64,000 nt of DNA from Salinirussus salinus (GTDB lineage: Archaea; Halobacteriota; Halobacteria; Halobacteriales; Haloarculaceae), in the NCBI RefSeq assembly GCF_009831455.1, contig NZ_WOWO01000003.1:434001-498000 (forward strand), given 5' to 3'. The notes under the pieces are model-generated. The model was not told the origin of the DNA. It worked only from the letters and a program-made list of their open reading frames with translations, and searched no databases. The position numbers and the translations under genes were made by a program. Shown one piece after another: positions 3,619 through 41,917 of this stretch. Numbering within the stretch: the stretch's first letter is position 1; each line of letters begins with the position of its first letter.

Positions 3619-4239
3619 TCAGTCGTCGGTCGTCCGGTTGCCCGCGGTGCCGCCGACGGCCGTCGGCGGCCGGTCGGGTTCCGCGGCCGGCTGTCTGTAC
3701 CGCTGGACGGTCTCGCCGGCTGCGAGGCCGGCGATCACCGCAGCAGTGACCAGCGCGTAGCCGTACCCCCCGAGCCACGCGAGCGGGGGCAGCCCGGCCG
3801 CCCCGGCGGCGGCCAGCAGCCCCAGCGCGCCGCTCACCGCGAGGTATACCGGTCCCCAGGCTCGCCTCCCCGACGACGTGGCGTCGAGGTAGGCATCGAA
3901 CTCCCGGACGGAGTCGGTCATCCTCACTGTCCCCCGGTTGCGGTCGTAGGTGACGACCCCGAGCGCGTCCATCTTCGGCAGGTGGGTCTGGTGGAGCGCG
4001 GTGTACAGCCGCTTGCGCTCGCCGGGGACGACCTCGGATGTCGCGGTCCCGTTCTCCCAGGCGGCCAGCTGCTCCGAGAGGTCGCGTATCGTCACCGTCC
4101 CGCCGATGTGTCGCAGGTAGTGCAACACGTGACGGCGGCGGCGGTTGCTCAACGTCTTGAAGATGTCGTCCGGGGAGAGTTCCGACTCGACCCGTCCCAC
4201 CGGGTCGGCCCCTTCACCCCCGTCCCCGATCGTCTGCAT
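3619..4239 (-). CDS. Membrane-anchored HTH regulator, DUF7344-type (206 aa)
   Basis: Residues about 20-110 form a winged-helix domain of the haloarchaeal type, with LSNRRRRHVLHYL, a recognition region around LSEQLAAWEN, and TALHQTHLPKMDALGVV. Two hydrophobic helices follow at about 132-150 and 158-175. This gives a DNA-binding head tethered to the membrane. It is a paralogue of the 173-aa regulator at 5410-5931, sharing the YxALHQTHLPKL/M segment. The ATG at 4239 is used; an in-frame TTG four codons upstream is less likely. AT-rich promoter sequence lies at about 4255-4295. The target genes are unknown. Confidence 0.82.
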   Translation of the reverse strand: MQTIGDGGEGADPVGRVESELSPDDIFKTLSNRRRRHVLHYLRHIGGTVTIRDLSEQLAAWENGTATSEVVPGERKRLYTALHQTHLPKMDALGVVTYDRNRGTVRMTDSVREFDAYLDATSSGRRAWGPVYLAVSGALGLLAAAGAAGLPPLAWLGGYGYALVTAAVIAGLAAGETVQRYRQPAAEPDRPPTAVGGTAGNRTTDD

Positions 4240-4441
4240 TGTGATCTCCAACTATACGTAACGCACATTAATCTAATAACTATATCCCTCGTAATTCACC
4301 GGTCAGGTCCGGGCCGCCGCCCGCTCGGCGGTCGCCGTCGACCGCCCCGGCCGGGTGTCGGGCCCGACAGCGCCGCATCCGGCGGGGTTCGTACGCTCTC
4401 TATACCTATACGCCGGTACGACGTAGCGACGTCACCACCGC

Positions 4442-5409: not shown

Positions 5410-5931
5410 TCAGTTTCTGCGCAAGCGTGCGACCAGCCCTCCGGTCACCAGCTGGTAGCACGTCGAGACCGCGAAGGTGGCAAGCGACAGCGTCGCGAAC
5501 ACCAGCGGGTCGAGGGCGCCAAAGGCCGGCAGGCCGGCGAGCGAGGCGACGACCGCGAAGAGCCCGACGATGCCGAGCCCGCGGTAGTACTCCCCCCAGG
5601 TGATCCCCGCGCGGGTGACGTTGTCCATGTAGCGGCTCACCGGGAGTGTGTGCGGGGAGGGTCGGACCAGCTTCCGGTCGGCGTCGTACTCCAGCAGGTC
5701 ATACTCGGCGAGTTTCGGCAGATGTGTCTGGTGGAGCGCGTTGTAGACACTCCCCCGAAGTGCGCGCGGGGCCGGGTCGGTGCCGGCCTCGCTGGCGGCG
5801 ATCCGTTCGGAGAGCTCCCGCAGCGGGATCCCCTCGCGCCGGCGCCAGAGCGTCGCCAGCGTCTCCCGGCGCCGCGAGTTGCTCAACAGGTGGTACAGCT
5901 CCGATTCGGCTACCGGGACACGTTCGAACAT
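5410..5931 (-). CDS. Membrane-anchored HTH regulator, DUF7344-type, divergent to the SipW cluster (173 aa)
   Basis: The winged-helix domain spans about residues 8-95 (ELYHLLSNSRRRETLATLW, LRELSERIAASE, YNALHQTHLPKLAEYDLL). Two membrane helices follow at about 115-135 and 143-163. It is a paralogue of the regulator at 3619-4239. It sits divergently upstream of the SipW/TasA-like cluster, and the intergenic region holds nine helically phased GTAC words. It is therefore the best candidate to bind that array and possibly to control its own promoter, though this is inference. Direct binding is untested. Confidence 0.82.
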   Translation of the reverse strand: MFERVPVAESELYHLLSNSRRRETLATLWRRREGIPLRELSERIAASEAGTDPAPRALRGSVYNALHQTHLPKLAEYDLLEYDADRKLVRPSPHTLPVSRYMDNVTRAGITWGEYYRGLGIVGLFAVVASLAGLPAFGALDPLVFATLSLATFAVSTCYQLVTGGLVARLRRN

Positions 5932-5985
5932 TCACCCCATCACTGCCGGGAGGAGACGCTCGCATCGGGCTTAGGGATGGTTTCC

Positions 5986-6128
5986 GTACGCCCCGGTACG
6001 CTTCTGTCGGCCATCTGAGACGATCTGGTACGCGAACCGTACGTATCCGGCTGCGAGCGGTACGACATCCCAACGCGACCGGTACGGTTCACGTACGGAC
6101 CGGCCAGCGACCGGTACGGGTCCCGTAC
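5986..6128. promoter_or_regulatory. Helically phased GTAC operator array
   Basis: This lies inside the 352-base gap between the HTH gene and the first SipW-type gene. GTAC occurs at 5986, 5996, 6028, 6039, 6060, 6082, 6093, 6114 and 6125. The steps are 10, 32, 11, 21, 22, 11, 21 and 11 bases, so all sites fall on nearly the same DNA face. Most sites sit in CGTACG, GGTACG or CCGTAC contexts, and 6114-6128 is a perfect palindrome, GTACGGG-T-CCCGTAC. The array ends 30 bases before the TATA box. The rest of the gap holds no credible gene. Confidence 0.7.
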
Positions 6129-6157
6129 AGGGCGGGTCGAAATCGGTATCGAACCCC

Positions 6158-6163
6158 TATAAA
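6158..6163 (+). promoter_or_regulatory. TATA box of the SipW/TasA-like cluster
   Basis: TATAAA in the context CCCCTATAAATCGG lies 30 bases after the last GTAC word. It predicts transcription from about 6185 and a leader of about 100 nt before the ATG at 6284. Confidence 0.55.
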
Positions 6164-6283
6164 TCGGCGTTTCGGGGCTCGAGTCGGCTGAACGAGTGCA
6201 TAGGTAATACCCGACCTGTGCTGGGGGGTAGTATCCCCAGACGACCCAGTCCACGCCGGATGGATCGTCGGGATACCAAAACC

Positions 6284-7609
6284 ATGACCGACGACAAACT
6301 CTACACACTGTCGCGCCGCAAGATGCTGGCCGGGCTCGGAGCCATCGGCATCGCATCCGCCGGCGCGGGTATCGGTACCTCCGCGTACTTCAGTGACCGC
6401 GAGTCGTTCAGCGGCAACACGCTCACCGCCGGCTCGCTCGACATGCGCGTTCTCTACGAGACCTCCTACGACAGCGACGGGGCCGTCCAGAACCAGGTCG
6501 GCTCCGCTATGGGCACCCAGGACGGCGAGCCCGCGAGCACGTTCTACGAACTGGACGACGTGAAGCCCGGCGATTCCGGTCACGTCGAGTTCTGCTTCGA
6601 GATCGTCGACAACCCATCCTACGTGTGGGCCTGCGGTGACATCTCCGAGTCGGAGAACGGCTTCACCGAGCCCGAGAGCGAGGTCGACAGCACTGAGAAC
6701 GGCGAACTGGCCGAGAGCATCGACGCCCGGCTGGTCTACTGTAACGAGGTTGACGGCGAGTTCGTCGAGGGCGAGGAGATAGTCTCCGGCAGCCTCCTCG
6801 ACGTCTTTGCCGCCATCACCGGTGGCGCAGCCCTCGATGGCTCCGGTGCCGCCGGGCTCGCACCGGGCGACCAAGCTCCCTACAGCGAGGAAGTCGAGGT
6901 CACGGACGGCCCTGACTACATCACCGGCCCCTGCCTGTGCCTGTTCTGGGAAGTTCCCACCTCGGTGGGCAACGAGATCCAGACGGACACGCTGTCGATG
7001 GCCCTGGAGTTCCACGCGGTCCAGTCCCGCCACAACGACGGCACCGCCAACCCCTGCACCCCGAGCATCACCACCCGGACCGGTGAGGGCTTCGCCAAGC
7101 AAGAGGAGTTCGCGACCCAGCAGGAGACTTCCTTCGCACGCGGGCGCTACGGTGACAACCTCGCCGCCGGCGCCTGGGAAGTCGCGGTCGGCCCGGACGT
7201 GGGCAGTGCCACCACGGCGAACTACGTCTGGACCCCCGGTAACACCGTCCCGTTCAGCTACGAGTACGACGGCAGCCAGGCCTCGTTCACCCTCGACGGC
7301 GTGAGCGTCGCCAGCGCGATCCCGGCACCCTCGGGCAAGCTCGCCATCACGACCAAGGCCGACGAGGCGACTGTCAGCGTCGCGAACCTCGCGCTCGAAC
7401 TGAACGGCGTGGCCACGACCCTCTCGGGTCCCGACGCCGTCTCCGCGAGCAACGACGGCAGCGGCCGCGACCTCACCTACCTGGTCTTCGACACCGACGC
7501 CGCCGACGTGGCGGCCCCGTTCGAGATCAGCGGGGACGTCACCGTCGACGTCCAGGGTGACTACTCCGGCAGCGACGAGGACGTCGCCTTCGACATCAGC
7601 ATCGAGTGA
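6284..7609 (+). CDS. SipW-dependent TasA-like exported protein, A1 (441 aa)
   Basis: Residues 1-40 form a SipW-type signal peptide: SRRKMLAGLGAIG, a hydrophobic core, then TSAYFSDRESF, with cleavage expected near AYFS/D. The mature start NTLTAGSLDMRV is the usual TasA/camelysin beginning. A shared beta-sandwich follows in two halves: DDVKPGDSGHVEF...GDISESENG (about 91-152) and SLLDVF...FWEVPTSVGNEIQ...SRHND (about 170-252). A private C-terminal beta domain occupies about 280-441. The start MTDD was chosen because the two following paralogues begin MTDDNQLYNLSRRK. It heads a cluster with its own signal peptidase and is probably a surface or fibre protein. Confidence 0.82.
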   Translation: MTDDKLYTLSRRKMLAGLGAIGIASAGAGIGTSAYFSDRESFSGNTLTAGSLDMRVLYETSYDSDGAVQNQVGSAMGTQDGEPASTFYELDDVKPGDSGHVEFCFEIVDNPSYVWACGDISESENGFTEPESEVDSTENGELAESIDARLVYCNEVDGEFVEGEEIVSGSLLDVFAAITGGAALDGSGAAGLAPGDQAPYSEEVEVTDGPDYITGPCLCLFWEVPTSVGNEIQTDTLSMALEFHAVQSRHNDGTANPCTPSITTRTGEGFAKQEEFATQQETSFARGRYGDNLAAGAWEVAVGPDVGSATTANYVWTPGNTVPFSYEYDGSQASFTLDGVSVASAIPAPSGKLAITTKADEATVSVANLALELNGVATTLSGPDAVSASNDGSGRDLTYLVFDTDAADVAAPFEISGDVTVDVQGDYSGSDEDVAFDISIE

Positions 7610-7656: not shown

Positions 7657-9084
7657 ATGACCGACGACAACCAACTGTACAACCTCAGCAGGCGGAAGCT
7701 ACTCGCAGGCCTGGGGACAGTGGGGCTCGCCTCCGCTGGCGCCGGCCTCGGCACCTCCGCGTTCTTCAGCGACCGCGAAGCCTTCGAGGACAACCGCCTC
7801 ACCGCGGGCACGCTGGACCTGAAACTCGACTACAAGGCGACCTACCTCGGCGGCCCGGGCCGGCTCGACGCCGTGACGGCGATGGGCTACCCCGACGCCG
7901 AGGACCTCGGCGAGGGCCGGTACCTGCTCGACCAGGCACCGAGCCCAGCCGACATGCAGGCCTGGGAGGACCTCGTCCAGGGCGAGGAGTTCGACTTCTG
8001 CTCGCTCGAGGCCGACGAATTCCTGGTCAACGGCAGCGGGATCCCGATGTTCACACTTGAGGACGTGAAACCCGGCGACTCCGGCGAGGTGACCATCAGC
8101 GTCCACATCTGTGACAACCCCGGCTACGTCGAGCTGTTCGGCGACCTCTCCGAGGCCGAGAACGGCGAGACCGAGCCCGAAAGCGAGGTCGACGACACCG
8201 AGGGCGGCGACCTCGCGGACGCCATCGAGGTCTGCGTCTGGTACGACGAGGACTGCGACAACGTCTACGAGCCGACCGGCACCGGCCAGCAACAGGAACT
8301 GGAGGTCGCGCTCGTCAGTGACGTCTCCGGTTCGATGGGCGGCGCACCGCTGTCGGCGCTGAAGACCGCCGCGACGAATTTCGTCGACAACCTCTCCTCG
8401 CCGGACGAGGCCGCGGCGGTCTCGTTCAACAGTGGCGCCACGACCGACCAGGAGCTGACGACCAACTACCAACTCGTCCAGAACGCGATCACCAGCTACA
8501 CCGCGGGTGGCGGCACCTCTATCGCGGCCGGCGTGAACGAGGGTGCCGACGAGCTCCTCAACGGGACCAACGCCACCCCGGGCGCCTCGAAGGTGATGAT
8601 CCTCCTGAGCGACGGACAGTCCAACGCCAGCGCAGCCATCGCAGCCGCCGACGCCGCGAAGAACGCGGGTATCCGCATCTTCACCATCGCGCTGGGCAAC
8701 GCGGACACGAGTCTCTTGGAGAGTCTCGCAACGTCGCCCGACGACGCGTTCGTCGCGCCGAACCCCGCCGACCTGGACACCGTCTACGCGGAGATCGCAC
8801 AGGTCGTCCTCGCGGGCGAACAGAAGATCGCCGAGGGGACGATGAGCGAGGTGTTCGACCAGCTCGCCGACGGCGTCCTGCTGGACGGCAACCGCCAGGA
8901 GGAGGGCGTCCAGCCCTACCCCGGCGCGACCACCCAGTGTATCGGCTTCGAGTGGACGCTCCCGACAGACGTGGGCAACGAGGTCCAGTCCGACTCGGTG
9001 ACCTTCGACATCGGCCTGGCGGCCGAACAGAGCCGCCACAACGACGACCCCGACCCGTACGCTCCCACTCCCACGGCGGAGTGA
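7657..9084 (+). CDS. SipW-dependent TasA-like protein with inserted VWA domain, A2 (475 aa)
   Basis: The signal peptide is nearly identical to its neighbours (SRRKLLAGLGTVG...TSAFFSDREAF), followed by NRLTAGTLDLKL. The TasA-like first half ends with EDVKPGDSGEV...VYEP at about 136-206. A von Willebrand A domain follows at about 215-385, with a complete MIDAS: D222-x-S224-x-S226, T287 and D319. The second half resumes with MSEVFDQLADGVLLDG and GFEWTLPTDVGNEVQ...SRHND at about 395-463. The VWA domain is thus inserted at the point where A1 has only a short linker. A metal-dependent surface-adhesion role is inferred. The start is the ATG 47 bases after the A1 stop. Confidence 0.82.
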   Translation: MTDDNQLYNLSRRKLLAGLGTVGLASAGAGLGTSAFFSDREAFEDNRLTAGTLDLKLDYKATYLGGPGRLDAVTAMGYPDAEDLGEGRYLLDQAPSPADMQAWEDLVQGEEFDFCSLEADEFLVNGSGIPMFTLEDVKPGDSGEVTISVHICDNPGYVELFGDLSEAENGETEPESEVDDTEGGDLADAIEVCVWYDEDCDNVYEPTGTGQQQELEVALVSDVSGSMGGAPLSALKTAATNFVDNLSSPDEAAAVSFNSGATTDQELTTNYQLVQNAITSYTAGGGTSIAAGVNEGADELLNGTNATPGASKVMILLSDGQSNASAAIAAADAAKNAGIRIFTIALGNADTSLLESLATSPDDAFVAPNPADLDTVYAEIAQVVLAGEQKIAEGTMSEVFDQLADGVLLDGNRQEEGVQPYPGATTQCIGFEWTLPTDVGNEVQSDSVTFDIGLAAEQSRHNDDPDPYAPTPTAE

Positions 9085-9163: not shown

Positions 9164-10933
9164 ATGACTGACGACAATCAACTGTACAACCTCAGCAGGC
9201 GGAAGCTGCTGGCGGGCCTGGGGACCGTGGGGCTGGCATCGGCCGGCGCCGGTCTCGGGACCTCCGCGTTCTTCAGCGACCGCGAATCGTTCACGAACAA
9301 CAGCCTCCGCGCCGGCGAGCTCGACCTGCTCGTCGACTGGCAACAGACCTACGACGGCCCCGCCGAGAGCGCGGTCTACGGCTCGGCCGGCCGCCCCTAC
9401 GTCAACGCCTACCCCGACAGCGACGGTGACGGGGTCCAGGACGACGTTCCCCAGTCCTTCGTGGTCTGGGCGAAGCGCAACGGCTACGACCTGAACACCG
9501 CTGCCGGCCAGTCGGCCGCAGTCGCCGCGTTCAAAGACGCCTTCTTCGCGGACCTGGGCGCGGGCAACGACTGGGAGGCGCCGCTGGTCGCACTCGACGA
9601 CGTGAAGCCCGGCGACACCGGCGAGGTGACGCTGTCGCTGCACTTCTTCGACAACCCCGCATACATCCGGATGCTCGGGGACCTGACCGGCGAGGCCGAG
9701 AACGGGCTCACCGAGCCCGAGGCCGAGGTGGATTCGACCCCCGACACCGGCGAGCTCGGCGAGAGCGTCGACGTGCTCGTCTGGAACGACGACGGCGACA
9801 ACGTCTACGAGCCACGGAACGGCCAGGACGTCGACGTCGTCGTCCTGTTCGACACCTCCTGTTCGATGGAGTGGGCCGACTCCTCCGCGGGATGTAACGC
9901 AAACGAAAACACGCCCGCGCCGAACAAGTTCCCGCAGGCACAGGCCGGCGCGAAGGCGCTGTTCGAGGAGCTGCTGGCCGAGCCCGACGTCTCCGGGCTG
10001 GGCCTGCCCGCCGACATGATTCCGGACGCGAACGTCCGCGTCGGACTCGTCGAGTACGGCAACGACACCGGGGTCAAGGTCCCCCTCGGGGACGACCTGG
10101 ACGCGCTGCGCAACGAGGTCGACGCGATGTCCCCCGGCAACAGCACCCTCTTGCCGACCGCACTGGAGGAGGCCATCGACATGCTCGAGGGCAGCGACGC
10201 CGACGAGAAGTGCGTCGTCGTCATCGGTGACGGCCAGCCCCACGACACGGGCAACAACGAACCCGGAAGCGGCTCGCCCGTGAACCCGCTCTCCGGCGTC
10301 ACCTACGACGACTGGGGGGCGACCTACTCGGTCCAGCTGACCGAGTACCTCGAGGACGTGGTCGGCGCGAACGTGCTGACCGTCCACTACGAGGTCGAAC
10401 CTGAGGTGAGCCTGGCGACGGGGATCGACACGGCCTACGCCCAGGGCACGGCCCCGAACTACGACATCGTCGACGGGGAGATCCAGACCATCGAGCTGTT
10501 CGAGATCATGGCCTCGCCGGTCAGCGGCGACCCTCTCGACATCAACCGTCTCTCCTTCGCCGCGGACCGTGACCGGCTGGTCTGTGTACTCCACCGGATC
10601 GCCCACCTCTGTGCCGGCGAGGTCCCGCTGTTCTACGGCAGCCTCGACGGCGCGCTGGAGGCGCTTGACGACGGACTCCTCCTCGTGGGGAACCCCCGGG
10701 TCGCGGCCGATCCCGAGAGCGACGCCCCCGTCCGGGAGTGTCTGGAGTGGTCCTGCACCTACTACGTCGGCTTCGAGTGGGCCGTCGACCCGGCGGTCGG
10801 CAACGAGATCCAGTCCGACTCCCTCGAGTTCTCGCTGGGCTTCGAGGCCGAGCAGTGCCGGCACAACGACGCGCCCTTCGAGAGCGAGGACGCCGAGCCC
10901 GCCGGCCAGGAGGTCACGCAGACGGCGGACTGA
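9164..10933 (+). CDS. SipW-dependent TasA-like protein with inserted VWA domain, A3 (589 aa)
   Basis: The signal peptide and LRAGELDLLV mature start match A2. Residues 85-94 read DSDGDGVQDD, a calcium-loop motif of the EF-hand or thrombospondin-3 kind. The first TasA-like half is at about 145-216 (DDVKPGDTGEV...DNVYEP). A longer VWA domain follows at about 223-480, with MIDAS residues D230-x-S232-x-S234, T328 and D356. The second half (GALEALDDGLLLVG, GFEWAVDPAVGNEIQ, CRHND) is at about 495-569. The VWA contains extra cysteines not present in A2. The start was chosen by its near-identity to A2; in-frame codons further upstream are not conserved. Confidence 0.82.
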   Translation: MTDDNQLYNLSRRKLLAGLGTVGLASAGAGLGTSAFFSDRESFTNNSLRAGELDLLVDWQQTYDGPAESAVYGSAGRPYVNAYPDSDGDGVQDDVPQSFVVWAKRNGYDLNTAAGQSAAVAAFKDAFFADLGAGNDWEAPLVALDDVKPGDTGEVTLSLHFFDNPAYIRMLGDLTGEAENGLTEPEAEVDSTPDTGELGESVDVLVWNDDGDNVYEPRNGQDVDVVVLFDTSCSMEWADSSAGCNANENTPAPNKFPQAQAGAKALFEELLAEPDVSGLGLPADMIPDANVRVGLVEYGNDTGVKVPLGDDLDALRNEVDAMSPGNSTLLPTALEEAIDMLEGSDADEKCVVVIGDGQPHDTGNNEPGSGSPVNPLSGVTYDDWGATYSVQLTEYLEDVVGANVLTVHYEVEPEVSLATGIDTAYAQGTAPNYDIVDGEIQTIELFEIMASPVSGDPLDINRLSFAADRDRLVCVLHRIAHLCAGEVPLFYGSLDGALEALDDGLLLVGNPRVAADPESDAPVRECLEWSCTYYVGFEWAVDPAVGNEIQSDSLEFSLGFEAEQCRHNDAPFESEDAEPAGQEVTQTAD

Positions 10934-10954: not shown

Positions 10955-10990
10955 GTACGGCCTCCGTACGCCGCTGTACGGACCTCGTAC
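10955..10990. promoter_or_regulatory. Second, internal GTAC operator array
   Basis: GTAC occurs at 10955, 10966, 10976 and 10987, in steps of 11, 10 and 11 bases. The sites form inverted pairs: GTACGG-CCT-CCGTAC at 10955-10969 and GTACG-GACCT-CGTAC at 10976-10990. The array ends about 28 bases before a weak TATA-like CATACCTAT at 11018-11026, the same geometry as the array upstream of A1. This suggests the downstream half of the cluster has its own coordinately controlled promoter. Confidence 0.62.
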
Positions 10991-11065
10991 CGGTTCGGAC
11001 GCGGCCGGGAACGACTCCATACCTATCCCCCCGGCAGTCGAGGGGAGGACAACGAACACAACACT

Positions 11066-11905
11066 ATGCAACTGACACGTCGGCAGCTACTGGCCGGCAT
11101 CGGCGCCGGCGCACTCGGGGTGACCGGGGCGAACCTGACCCGCCAGGAGCCCCGCTACACCCACTACACCTACGCCTCGGACGGCGACCTCGACGACCGC
11201 CGGGTCCGGGTCGCGTGGTACGAACGCTACAACGGCGTCGCCCTGGAGAGCCAGGCCGGGCCCGCCGAGGCCAGCCTGACCGAGACACTCGACCCCGGGA
11301 CCGACCCCACCTACGTCCACGACCCGACGGACGTGACGGCCGTCAACGGTCCCGTCGTCACCGTCGGGAACGTCCTCCCCGGTGACGAGGGGACGCTCGT
11401 GGTCGGGCTCGAGGCCGTCGACGACGGCGACCTCCTCGCGGAACCGGTCGACGTCTGGCTCCGCGGGGTCGTCACCGACGACGCGGAGGGCGGGCTGAAC
11501 GAGGCCGAGGCCGCCGCGGGCGACCGGTCGCCCGACGACGGCGAGCTCGACGAGCGGGTCACCGTCGCGCTCTGGCGGGACGGCTCGCCGCTTGGCTCCT
11601 GTAACGGCCGCCGGGAGTTCTCCGAGGCCCTGGAGGCGCCGCTGGTCGAGCGGGCCCCGCTCGGGACCGCCTTCGGTCCCGACAGCGACGTCGGCGACGC
11701 CGACGGCCAGCGCGTGCTGACCGGGCTCACCCCCGGGTCGGCGCGCTGTTTCGCGCTCGCGTGGTCGATGCCCGACGCCGACGGCGTCAACGTCGCCCAG
11801 GGCGACAGCGTCGCCTTCGAACTCGCCTTCGGGGCCGTCCCCGCCGGCGCCGCGAGCCCGTTCCCTGTGGCGCCGACGGTCCAGCCGACGGAGGTGGGGC
11901 CGTGA
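11066..11905 (+). CDS. TasA/SipW-like exported protein, divergent, A4 (279 aa)
   Basis: It opens MQLTRRQLLAGIGAGALGV, a short RR-containing signal, but lacks the FSDxE cleavage motif of A1-A3. The two conserved strands of the family are still recognisable: GNVLPGDEGTLVV...GGLNEAEA with DDGELDERVTVALW (about 99-175), and ALAWSMPDADGVNVAQGDSVAFEL near 230-255. It is the first gene after the internal GTAC array and overlaps the next gene by 4 bases. It may be a minor subunit or anchor of the same surface structure. Function is inferred from neighbours only. Confidence 0.7.
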   Translation: MQLTRRQLLAGIGAGALGVTGANLTRQEPRYTHYTYASDGDLDDRRVRVAWYERYNGVALESQAGPAEASLTETLDPGTDPTYVHDPTDVTAVNGPVVTVGNVLPGDEGTLVVGLEAVDDGDLLAEPVDVWLRGVVTDDAEGGLNEAEAAAGDRSPDDGELDERVTVALWRDGSPLGSCNGRREFSEALEAPLVERAPLGTAFGPDSDVGDADGQRVLTGLTPGSARCFALAWSMPDADGVNVAQGDSVAFELAFGAVPAGAASPFPVAPTVQPTEVGP

Positions 11906-13131
11906 GCCTCACCCGCAGGCGCGTGCTCGCGGCGCTGGCTGCGGCCGGCGGCGCCGGCGCGCTCGCCGGCCAGGGCACCGGCGCACTCCTCCGGGACAGC
12001 GAGGGGACGGGCGGCGAGCTGACCGCCGGTCTCGTCGACCTCACCGTCGCCTACTGGCAGGGTGACCCGACGGCCGTCGACCTCGACGACCCCGACGGCG
12101 TCGCCGACGGGCCACGGCTCGCGCTCCCGATAGCCGTTCCGGCGGACGGGACCGAGGGCCGGACGCTGCTGCGGTTCTCGCTGCCCGAGTCGGCGCGGGG
12201 AGTCAACAACCCCGCGAGCCTCTGGCTCCGGGCCGACTGCCCGGCGCAGACGACGCTCGCGGAGCTGCTGGGCGTCCGGCTGCGGTACTCGGACGCCGAC
12301 GGAACGGCCGGCCCCCGCATCGACGAGGGGTCGCTACGGGAGGTCGCTGAGGGGCTGCGGACCGGCCGCCGGCTCGACGGCGACGGCGACCCCCCGAACG
12401 GCTTCGACTGCCTGACCGACGACCTGTTCGTGCTCGTGGAGTACGACCTCCAGGGCTACGTCGGCAGCGAGACCGTCGAGTTCGCACTCGACGTCGCCGC
12501 CGTCCAGTGTCGCAACAGCGACCCCGACCGGAACCCCTTCGCCCCGAGTTCCCCCGACCCCTGCCCGCCCGCCTGGCGCTGTGACTGCTGCTGGCCGGTC
12601 GGGAAGGTGGAGGTCGACGAGCCCCTCGAAGCGGGCCGGACCTACGCCTTCGACGAGGGGCTGGTCGGCTACGCGCTCGACGTGACCGCCGTCGACGGCG
12701 ACTCGGGCGTGGCCTTCGAGCTGGTCTCGACCGACGGCGGCCCCGTCCTCCCGCTCTGTGCGGTGGCGGTCAAGGGTGGCCCGAACGATGCCCAGTACGA
12801 GCGCCCCGACGACACCTACGGATTCGACACGGGCGTCCTCGACGGGGCGGTCGACGGGGTCATCAGCGCGCCGGAAAACCCCAACAGCGGCGGCCGCTAC
12901 GCCATCAGCTACGTGCTCGTGAGCGTCTGCGCGCCGACCCTCGAGGGCGGGGACTGTCCCGAACCGCTGGCGAAGCCCGCGGCGAGCGTCGACGGGCCGC
13001 CGTCGACGCCCGGGTCCGGGGACGGCCCCGGACCGAACCCCGGGCCGAAACACGCCGGGGGCGGAGCCGACACGTCCGGCGGGGGCGCCGCGCCGCCGGC
13101 CGAGTCCGGTGAGACTGGAGGGGGCGAATGA
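11902..13131 (+). CDS. SipW-type exported protein with proline/glycine-rich tail, A5 (409 aa)
   Basis: The GTG start overlaps the A4 stop (GTGA). The N terminus reads VSLTRRRVLAALAAAGG...GALLRDSEGT, then GELTAGLVDLTV, the family's mature-start signature. Later strands FSLPESARGVNNPASLWL and VEFALDVAAVQCRNSD correspond to the conserved halves of A1-A3. Residues about 218-226 hold a cysteine cluster (CPPAWRCDCCW), followed by an extra beta domain. The end is disordered, rich in Gly, Pro and Ser, perhaps a spacer at the envelope. An upstream in-frame ATG lies inside A4 and was rejected. The gene overlaps the signal peptidase by 4 bases. Confidence 0.75.
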   Translation: MSLTRRRVLAALAAAGGAGALAGQGTGALLRDSEGTGGELTAGLVDLTVAYWQGDPTAVDLDDPDGVADGPRLALPIAVPADGTEGRTLLRFSLPESARGVNNPASLWLRADCPAQTTLAELLGVRLRYSDADGTAGPRIDEGSLREVAEGLRTGRRLDGDGDPPNGFDCLTDDLFVLVEYDLQGYVGSETVEFALDVAAVQCRNSDPDRNPFAPSSPDPCPPAWRCDCCWPVGKVEVDEPLEAGRTYAFDEGLVGYALDVTAVDGDSGVAFELVSTDGGPVLPLCAVAVKGGPNDAQYERPDDTYGFDTGVLDGAVDGVISAPENPNSGGRYAISYVLVSVCAPTLEGGDCPEPLAKPAASVDGPPSTPGSGDGPGPNPGPKHAGGGADTSGGGAAPPAESGETGGGE

Positions 13132-14165
13132 GCCCGCTCGGCCGGCTCCGGTCGGCCAACAGCTCCCGGGCCCGGAAGGTGGCGGTCGCGCTCGCCGGGG
13201 TGCTCCTGGTGGCGGCGGTGGTCCCCTTCGTCGTCTTCGCGGTCCCCCAGGTCGTCGGCGCGGACCACGGCTACGTGATCCTCTCCGGGAGCATGGAGCC
13301 GGCGCTCTCGCCGGGTGACGTGGTCATCGTGGCCGCAACCGCGGAGGTCGCCGCGGGCGACATCGTCACCTTCGACGACGGCAACGAAGTCCCGACGACC
13401 CACCGGGTGGTCGGCACCCAGGACGGCCAGTTCGTCACGAAAGGTGACGCGAACGAGGAGCCCGACAGCCGGCTGGTCGCGCGGGAGAGTCTCGTCGGCA
13501 AGGTGGTACTGACCATCCCGCTTGTCGGCCACGTCATCCTCTGGGCGAACACCCCGACCGGCTACGTGGCGATGGTCGTCGCGCCGCTGGCCCTGCTGCT
13601 GGTCACAGAGCTGTACAGCTGGGCGCGCCGCGGTGACGCCGCTGACACCGCGCCCGACGGTGTCGACGACACGGAGAACGAGGACGACGCGCCGGCCGCG
13701 AGCACTGACGCCGACCAGGCGGACGATGCGGAGGCCGCTGCAGCGGAGGCCGACGCCGAAACCGATACCGAGGCGGAGGCCGACGCGGACACCGATGCGG
13801 AGGCCGACCCGGAGACGGACGCTGAGACGCCGTCGCGGGCCGGTACCGTCGCGGTGGCGGTCGCGGACCTGAAGCTCACGCTGCTGGCCTCCGGGACGTT
13901 GCTGGCGTACGCGGGCTGGAACGTCTACGGCGAGGTGACCGTGGCTGCGGCCCCGGACCCGGTGTCGGTGGGCGCGGCGACCGCCGGCGGGCTGGGCCTG
14001 CTGTTTGCCGGCTGGGTCACCGTCGGCGCGTGGCACCGTGCGAGAACGGCCGACGACTCCGGGAGCGCGTCCGCGACGGAGCCGCTGGCAGCGGAGACCG
14101 ACGGCGGGACCGACACGGGCGGGGAGCCCGACGCCGACGGCGCGGACGCGGAGGCAGACCGATGA
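13128..14165 (+). CDS. Signal peptidase I (archaeal/ER type, SipW-like) with acidic tail and extra membrane helices (345 aa)
   Basis: A membrane-embedded serine protease of the S26B type. Residues about 17-44 form the first membrane helix. ILSGSMEPAL carries the catalytic Ser55. His92 in TTHRVV replaces the bacterial Lys, as in the archaeal/ER branch, and Asp107 lies in KGDAN. A second helix at about 143-163 would normally end the enzyme. Here a ~70-residue Asp/Glu/Ala-rich linker (about 168-238) and two more helices (about 244-264 and 279-301) follow, then another acidic tail. Its position directly after five SipW-type substrates argues that it is the dedicated processing enzyme. Confidence 0.88.
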   Translation: MSPLGRLRSANSSRARKVAVALAGVLLVAAVVPFVVFAVPQVVGADHGYVILSGSMEPALSPGDVVIVAATAEVAAGDIVTFDDGNEVPTTHRVVGTQDGQFVTKGDANEEPDSRLVARESLVGKVVLTIPLVGHVILWANTPTGYVAMVVAPLALLLVTELYSWARRGDAADTAPDGVDDTENEDDAPAASTDADQADDAEAAAAEADAETDTEAEADADTDAEADPETDAETPSRAGTVAVAVADLKLTLLASGTLLAYAGWNVYGEVTVAAAPDPVSVGAATAGGLGLLFAGWVTVGAWHRARTADDSGSASATEPLAAETDGGTDTGGEPDADGADAEADR

Positions 14166-40723: not shown

Positions 40724-41917
40724 ATGACGCAAGACGACAAGCGTCAGTCCGGGCGGGTATCGCGGCGTAAATTCATCCTGGGGACGGGGACGGCCGGTGC
40801 GGCCGCGCTGGCCGGCTGTTCGAGTTCGGGCGGCAGCAACACGCCCGCGGAGACCGAGGCCGACGACGATGGCGGCTCCTCGAACACTCCGGAGCCGTCG
40901 GACGACGAGACCGGAGACAACGAGACCGAGGACACCCCTACGGGGAGCCAGAGCGGGCCGGGCACCCTGCGCTCGGGCGGCTCCTCGACGGTGTATCCGC
41001 CGGCGAACACGGCTTCGTCGTACTGGAACGGGAACCGGCCGGCCGACGACGCCGAGTACTGGCCCTGGGAGGAGTACGGGCTCGACAACCCCGAGGAGTA
41101 CGCGCTGGCTGACTACTTCGCCGGCCTGTACGGCTTCGAGCGCAGGGACGACGCCAACCCGCCGTTCCCGTGGACGGTCGCGCTCTCCCACTCCGGGACG
41201 GGCGTCCGGAAGGTCCGGGACGGCCTCGTCGACCTTGGCAACTCCTCGGGGAACGTCGAGGACGAGCTTCCCGACCGGGACTCCTACGAGGACTTCGTCG
41301 ACCACGTGGTCGCCGTCGACGGCCAGCCGATCGTGGTCTCCTCGGAGATCGCCGAGGCGGGCCTGGACGGGATCGACGGCCAGACGCTGAAGGACCTCTA
41401 CAAGGGCCGGATCGACAACTGGCAGGAGATCGACAGCAGCCTGCCCGACCGCGAGGTGCTCGTGCTCGGCCGCGTCACCGGGTCGGGCACCCGGACTTCC
41501 TTCGTCAGCAACGTCTTCGACAACCCCGAAGAGGAGACGACGGTCGCCAACCGCTACGGGCAGAACCAGCGCCTCGCGCAGGCGATCGCCCAGGCCGATA
41601 ACGCGATCAGTTACCTCGCGCTGGCATTCCTCGACACCGACGGCGTCAGCCCCATCTCGCTGACCTGGGAGGGGACGACCTACACCTACGAGGACGACCA
41701 GAACGGGCTCGACTCCCAGGACTACCCGCTCTCGCGTGACCTCCACATGTACACGTGGCAGGGCACTGACAACCGGGAGGCCGCGGCGATCTACATGTGT
41801 CTGACCGAGTTCGGCCAGGACACGTTCGTCGCGCCCAACGACTACTTCACGCTGGGCGAGTCCCGGCGCCAGGCACAGATCGAGAAGCTGCCCGACCAGA
41901 ACCCGGTCTGGGAGTAG
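40724..41917 (+). CDS. pstS: Phosphate-binding lipoprotein PstS, second divergent copy (397 aa)
   Basis: The Tat lipoprotein signal SRRKFILGTGTAG ends in lipobox ALAGC (Cys32), followed by an acidic Asp/Glu/Ser/Thr linker. The binding domain has RSGGSSTVYPPANTASSYW, then an insertion rich in Trp, Tyr and Glu (about 105-145), then SHSGTGVRKVRDGLVDLGNS, LKDLYKGRIDNWQEI and RVTGSGTRTSF. It is more distant from bacterial PstS than the first copy. The promoter and downstream pstC2-pstA2-pstB2 define a second system. The affinity may differ from the first. Confidence 0.88.
   Translation: MTQDDKRQSGRVSRRKFILGTGTAGAAALAGCSSSGGSNTPAETEADDDGGSSNTPEPSDDETGDNETEDTPTGSQSGPGTLRSGGSSTVYPPANTASSYWNGNRPADDAEYWPWEEYGLDNPEEYALADYFAGLYGFERRDDANPPFPWTVALSHSGTGVRKVRDGLVDLGNSSGNVEDELPDRDSYEDFVDHVVAVDGQPIVVSSEIAEAGLDGIDGQTLKDLYKGRIDNWQEIDSSLPDREVLVLGRVTGSGTRTSFVSNVFDNPEEETTVANRYGQNQRLAQAIAQADNAISYLALAFLDTDGVSPISLTWEGTTYTYEDDQNGLDSQDYPLSRDLHMYTWQGTDNREAAAIYMCLTEFGQDTFVAPNDYFTLGESRRQAQIEKLPDQNPVWE

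Follow-up and report, generated by a model that had tools for sequence, protein, structure and literature searches.

The window analysed here is a stretch of 64,000 nucleotides from Salinirussus salinus, whose genome comprises 3.37 Mb in four contigs. In this window an array of GTAC words lies between a DUF7344 gene on the minus strand (5410–5931) and a cluster of genes for SipW-dependent-type secreted proteins:

3619..4251, minus strand: second DUF7344 gene (PF24035, 105.5 bits), found by tblastn to neighbour the first in the majority of orthologous clusters
5410..5931, minus strand: DUF7344 gene, 173 aa, the likeliest candidate ligand of the array (PF24035, 90.8 bits against a cut-off of 27.8)
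6284..7609, plus strand: SipW-dependent-type secreted protein with a choice-of-anchor W domain (TIGR04088 and NF041928 over cut-off)
7657..9084, plus strand: SipW-dependent-type vWA protein (PF00092, TIGR04088)
9164..10933, plus strand: SipW-dependent-type vWA protein (PF13519, TIGR04088)
11066..11905, plus strand: conserved cluster gene after a second array
13128..14165, plus strand: archaeal signal peptidase I, SipW-related (TIGR02228, 88.3 bits against a cut-off of 51.9)

Three of these proteins carry SipW-cognate signal peptides (TIGR04088 over cut-off) next to a SipW-like signal peptidase (TIGR02228), and by this domain content the cluster is predicted to be one of SipW-dependent secretion. 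The peptidase scored below the cut-off of the Bacillus SipW equivalog profile (NF046067). Matches to Peptidase_M73 (TasA/camelysin) covered the signal-peptide region only, and were below cut-off in two of the three proteins and just above it in one.

The initial annotation had described nine GTAC words spaced by whole helical turns, and both their coordinates (5986, 5996, 6028, 6039, 6060, 6082, 6093, 6114, and 6125) and their steps (10, 32, 11, 21, 22, 11, 21, and 11) were as it had given them. The claimed excess over chance also held: nine words occur in 143 bp, and 100 shuffles of the 64-kb window gave at most five in any 143-bp stretch. Shuffling only the intergenic region with its dinucleotides kept (n = 5000), a background itself array-enriched in the relevant dinucleotides, gave a mean of 3.2 and a maximum of nine. 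The words are phased with a period of 10.7 bp (R = 0.98), and none of 20,000 random placements was equal or better (P < 5e-5), which bears out the helical phasing.

We compared the region with the orthologous divergent promoters of 11 other genomes, in which the DUF7344 protein is 53–68% identical; phased words, which the initial annotation had proposed to look for in related genomes, are present upstream of the orthologous clusters. Repeated 5-mers in the intergenic regions show lag peaks at 21/22, 32, 43, 64, and 86. The in-phase score was 0.417 in ten other dereplicated orthologous promoters (shuffle SD = 0.05) and 0.165 in 22 more distant DUF7344–SipW promoters taken as a set (shuffle SD = 0.03); shuffle means were near -0.02, and 0 of 400 shuffles reached either score. 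Sequence upstream of another 48 DUF7344 genes gave R = 0.04, a conservative control since a few of these genes carry a divergent SipW gene missed by the first pattern, and genomic chunks gave 0.03–0.04.

The orthologous promoters also define a better unit than GTAC, namely an oriented half-site CGGTAYG followed 11 bp on by a weaker inverted CCGTAC. Derived from the 11 orthologous divergent promoters, the unit reads CGGTA(C/T/G)G-N3-CCGTAC and recurs every two, three, or four turns; a fuller alignment of all CGGTA words gives A-S-CGGTA(C/T)G-G-N3-CCGTAC. CGGTA points toward the SipW cluster in 45 cases and away from it in six. The word is CGGTATG almost throughout in the relative designated L110, alternates between CGGTATG and CGGTACG every 21/22 bp in L109, and is CGGTAGG in L112 and L039. 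GTAC had been taken as the word itself, but the in-phase GTAT and GTAG versions rule it out as the functional word; it is a palindromic special case, because relatives carry CGGTATG or CGGTAGG in the same unit. In the window the sites of the array are:

5984..6000, plus strand: half-sites CCGTACG (5984) and CGGTACG (5994)
6026..6042, plus strand: unit TGGTACGCGAACCGTAC
6058..6064, plus strand: half-site CGGTACG with a degenerate partner half-site
6080..6096, plus strand: unit CGGTACGGTTCACGTAC
6112..6128, plus strand: unit CGGTACGGGTCCCGTAC, which matches the consensus exactly
6144..6160, plus strand: last unit CGGTATCGAACCCCTAT, whose second half overlaps TATAAA

The array had also been thought to stop 30 bases before TATAAA. 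It reaches at least CGGTATC at 6144, three turns past 6112, and TATAAA sits within the last unit. The orthologous last unit reads CGGTATCGAGACCGTAC, and its second half (CCGTAC) aligns where the window reads CCCTATAAA. Because TATAAA (~6159) aligns with this second half-site in the orthologues, it is probably not a TATA box and is disfavoured as the core promoter. An Rfam search for structured RNA returned no match.

Two blocks are conserved at the ends of the region:

6199..6211, plus strand: block CATAGGTAATACC, conserved in the orthologues and the putative core promoter for the SipW-type cluster, with 55 sites phase-locked to it
5971..5980, minus strand: conserved block CCATCCCTAA (minus-strand reading), putative core promoter of the DUF7344 gene, in fixed helical phase to the array in 10 promoters

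The block at 6199–6211 is probably a core promoter. Relative to it, the 55 half-sites of 12 promoters share a single 10.65-bp lattice (residual SD = 0.76 bp, against 3.07 expected if unphased), the period being fitted on the same promoter set and the related promoters being not fully independent of one another. Per-promoter phases agree (R = 0.93), as they do with CGGTA[CTG] alone, leaving out the variant words added after inspection (R = 0.94), and CGGTA scored highest for phase lock among the 24 5-mers common enough to be testable. The occupied lattice points are turns 5, 8, 11, 13, 16, and 19 in the window vs 8, 10, 12, 14, 16, and 18 in L109. Across the aligned promoters, sites turn over on a fixed lattice: phase is conserved and the occupied positions differ between species.

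The two divergent blocks are themselves in phase. The distance between them is 175, 185, 186, 208, 228, 259, 271, or 272 bp in 10 promoters and is always 3.4–5.7 modulo 10.65; with close relatives collapsed to seven lineages, the single phase is significant (P = 0.0003), a period of 10.5–10.75 bp fitting best. The spacing has therefore changed by whole turns in this sample, by up to nine of them with phase kept, which is the natural counterpart of the 5-bp insertion that the initial annotation had proposed and an unusually clean natural experiment on the helical-phase dependence of archaeal promoters. Recurring in orthologous promoters, locked to a putative core promoter, and surviving whole-turn changes of spacing, the helical phasing looks functional.

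A non-regulatory origin would make the array a set of tandem-duplication repeats, a group of sites for DNA modification, or a signal for DNA bending or for the positioning of chromatin. Regular spacing can arise by tandem duplication, and GTAC is a palindrome usable by modification enzymes, both of which favour such an origin; against it, the spacers have diverged, the steps mix two, three, and four turns, relatives carry GTAT or GTAG in place of GTAC, and phase is conserved although the occupied positions differ. We regard it as very improbable.

The likeliest protein to read the array is the product of the divergent gene. Its AlphaFold model (pLDDT 88) has a winged helix (helices plus wing) and two membrane helices at 112–131 and 142–172, with hydropathy maxima of 2.2 and 1.5. 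Foldseek with this model returned winged-helix matches, all weak, and a sequence search for solved relatives returned none that was significant (SmtB at E = 0.48). DUF7344 matches number 17 in the S. salinus genome, and homologues of the protein occur in 284 of the 293 genomes of the order that were searched. In the literature searched, no paper dealt with DUF7344, and none with haloarchaeal SipW; the family, for which that literature gave no function, now has a proposed DNA target and a possible mechanism.

All 12 CGGTA promoters have DUF7344 proteins that group in a single clade (support 100/100) spanning two taxonomic families, and other genomes of both families have other DUF7344 proteins, mostly without CGGTA-type arrays. 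A putative recognition helix, SVYNAL(H/N)QTHLPK, is present in 12 of 12 proteins of the clade, and its Ala position is Ser or Thr in every other listed DUF7344 protein that matches the search pattern. This pairing of word and protein clade points to a recognition code open to test, with the Ala/Ser position in helix 56–76 first. One case counts against this ligand: in the L124 intergenic region a ACATACCGGA-type repeat occurs five times at 22-bp intervals, close to the DUF7344 gene. This is the CGGTATG word turned the other way, and the DUF7344 protein there lies outside the CGGTA clade. The divergent HTH gene as ligand, the part of the initial interpretation that stands alongside the phasing, gains indirect support because motif and protein clade covary. 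As the gene is passed on with its promoter, the covariation supports DUF7344 binding short of proof.

The same co-inheritance leaves room for a cluster-linked or host protein as binder, which could be the second DUF7344 paralogue, a heterodimer of the two, or a host factor encoded elsewhere, e.g., of Lrp type. A second DUF7344 gene adjoins most orthologous clusters, a heterodimer would explain the strong and weak half-sites of the asymmetric unit, and archaeal Lrp proteins use sites two or three turns apart (PMC2995911). We nevertheless hold another binder to be rather improbable, since the stretches examined for L136, L139, and L140, all three of which have arrays, yielded no second paralogue, the word follows the DUF7344 clade and not the host family, and the neighbouring genes turned up no Lrp gene.

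In the more distant DUF7344–SipW promoters the words differ (e.g., AACGACTCGTT, AACCGTCCGTT), and a clear array was absent from several of those inspected. The intergenic regions of L045, L049, L054, L122, and L129 carry 21-bp repeats on AACG...CGTT words, apparently another operator class. Assigning motifs to the distant promoters by simple rules left 29 of 47 without a class, and clustering of a second motif class (CGTTW/CATTW) on the tree was not significant, so that this class is only moderately supported.

A second phased set of GTAC words (10955/10966/10976/10987) lies within the cluster:

10955..10992, plus strand: second array, GTACGGCCTCCGTAC and GTACGGACCTCGTACCG, conserved in L132, L134, L135, L139, and L140
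11018..11026, plus strand: block CATACCTAT, also conserved, which would be the core promoter of gene 11066

Before gene 11066 the order is thus GTACGGCCTCCGTAC, GTACGGACCTCGTACCG, and then CATACCTAT. The gene has homologues of 48–61% identity in 10 of the 11 orthologous clusters and a shorter match in the remaining one. The block distances of the dyads before its orthologue in the five relatives listed fit the lattice of the main array; equivalent dyads before this orthologue were not seen in L136 and L138. The arrangement suggests that 10955–11026 is an internal promoter under the main array's regulator. The blocks at 5971–5980 (CCATCCCTAA), 6199–6211 (CATAGGTAATACC), and 11018–11026 (CATACCTAT), the three putative promoters of the cluster, are alike and unlike the usual haloarchaeal TATA consensus; they may represent a special core promoter or the site of a second regulator.

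A regulon elsewhere in the genome was considered and rejected: GTAC-N7-GTAC occurs at 21 places vs three in the reversed control, yet a genome-wide search found exact full units confined to this cluster, and the surroundings of C3:162543 and C4:72359 were checked and showed no array. Five GTAC words also lie within ~110 bp at 41020–41131, with steps of 36, 18, 24, and 30. They were rejected as a related array, being unphased; the steps are multiples of three within an open frame, so these words are codon-driven and unrelated.

We infer, and consider probable, that the main array is a multi-site operator of the divergent membrane-anchored winged-helix DUF7344 protein, bound as stacked dimers, and that its effect is likely activation together with autoregulation. 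Each dimer would read a strong CGGTAYG half-site and the weaker inverted CCGTAC one turn further, and dimers two or three turns apart would stack next to one another along a single DNA face. The array's face is fixed relative to the putative core promoters at both ends, so such a stack could touch the transcription machinery both at the SipW-type operon, where activation is the likeliest effect, and at the regulator's own gene, giving autoregulation. The short copy of the operator would serve the internal promoter of the same cluster.

The main rival to activation keeps operator and ligand and makes DUF7344 a repressor, the stack keeping the divergent promoters silent until it is released by a signal from the membrane or envelope. 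Genes that are divergent and autoregulated often encode repressors, and in the window and L039 just 23 bp separate the DUF7344 block from the site closest to it. In nearly all promoters, however, the array lies at least 55 bp upstream of the SipW block without overlap, a place typical of activators in archaea. Because of this placement activation with autoregulation is preferred, and repression appears unlikely. More broadly, and only tentatively, DUF7344 proteins might be membrane-anchored one-component regulators that build a one-faced nucleoprotein stack, by which the SipW locus would be held at the membrane and the state of the envelope would directly set its transcription; the face would be kept by whole-turn indels, and the word would change with the protein clade.

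Among known systems, the cluster resembles the Bacillus sipW-tasA matrix operon in combining a SipW-type signal peptidase with SipW-dependent secreted substrates. TasA-related fibres occur in archaea as bundling pili (PMC9674648). In contrast to both, the substrates here are choice-of-anchor and vWA proteins and the candidate regulator is a DUF7344 protein.

The closest parallel to the array is found in the archaeal Lrp family (Ss-LrpB, Ptr2, BarR), whose winged-helix dimers bind multiple imperfect sites two or three turns apart on one face, frequently within the control region of the gene that encodes them (PMC2995911); BarR is found in a divergent operon that has several sites at regular intervals (PMC4977709), and archaeal activation has been described as depending critically on placement on the face that TBP occupies (PMC7408454). 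The likeness is one of principle and not of membership. DUF7344 is the sole Pfam family found in the adjacent regulator, which is therefore not part of an Lrp/AsnC system and, unlike Lrp proteins, has membrane helices; there are also more units here, and in many species they are phase-locked to a conserved block at either end. Phased operators are thus already known for archaeal Lrp, and what is new is a variant with an uncharacterised candidate regulator. For the protein, the parallel is ArnR/ArnR1 of Sulfolobus, membrane-bound HTH regulators of archaella (PMC13286277), with which it shares an N-terminal HTH followed by a membrane part (architecture alone was compared), and ArnR regulates the operon of a surface structure; the target differs, and a long phased array is not described for ArnR in PMC13286277. 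By analogy, the present system would work like the Lrp operators and be built like ArnR.
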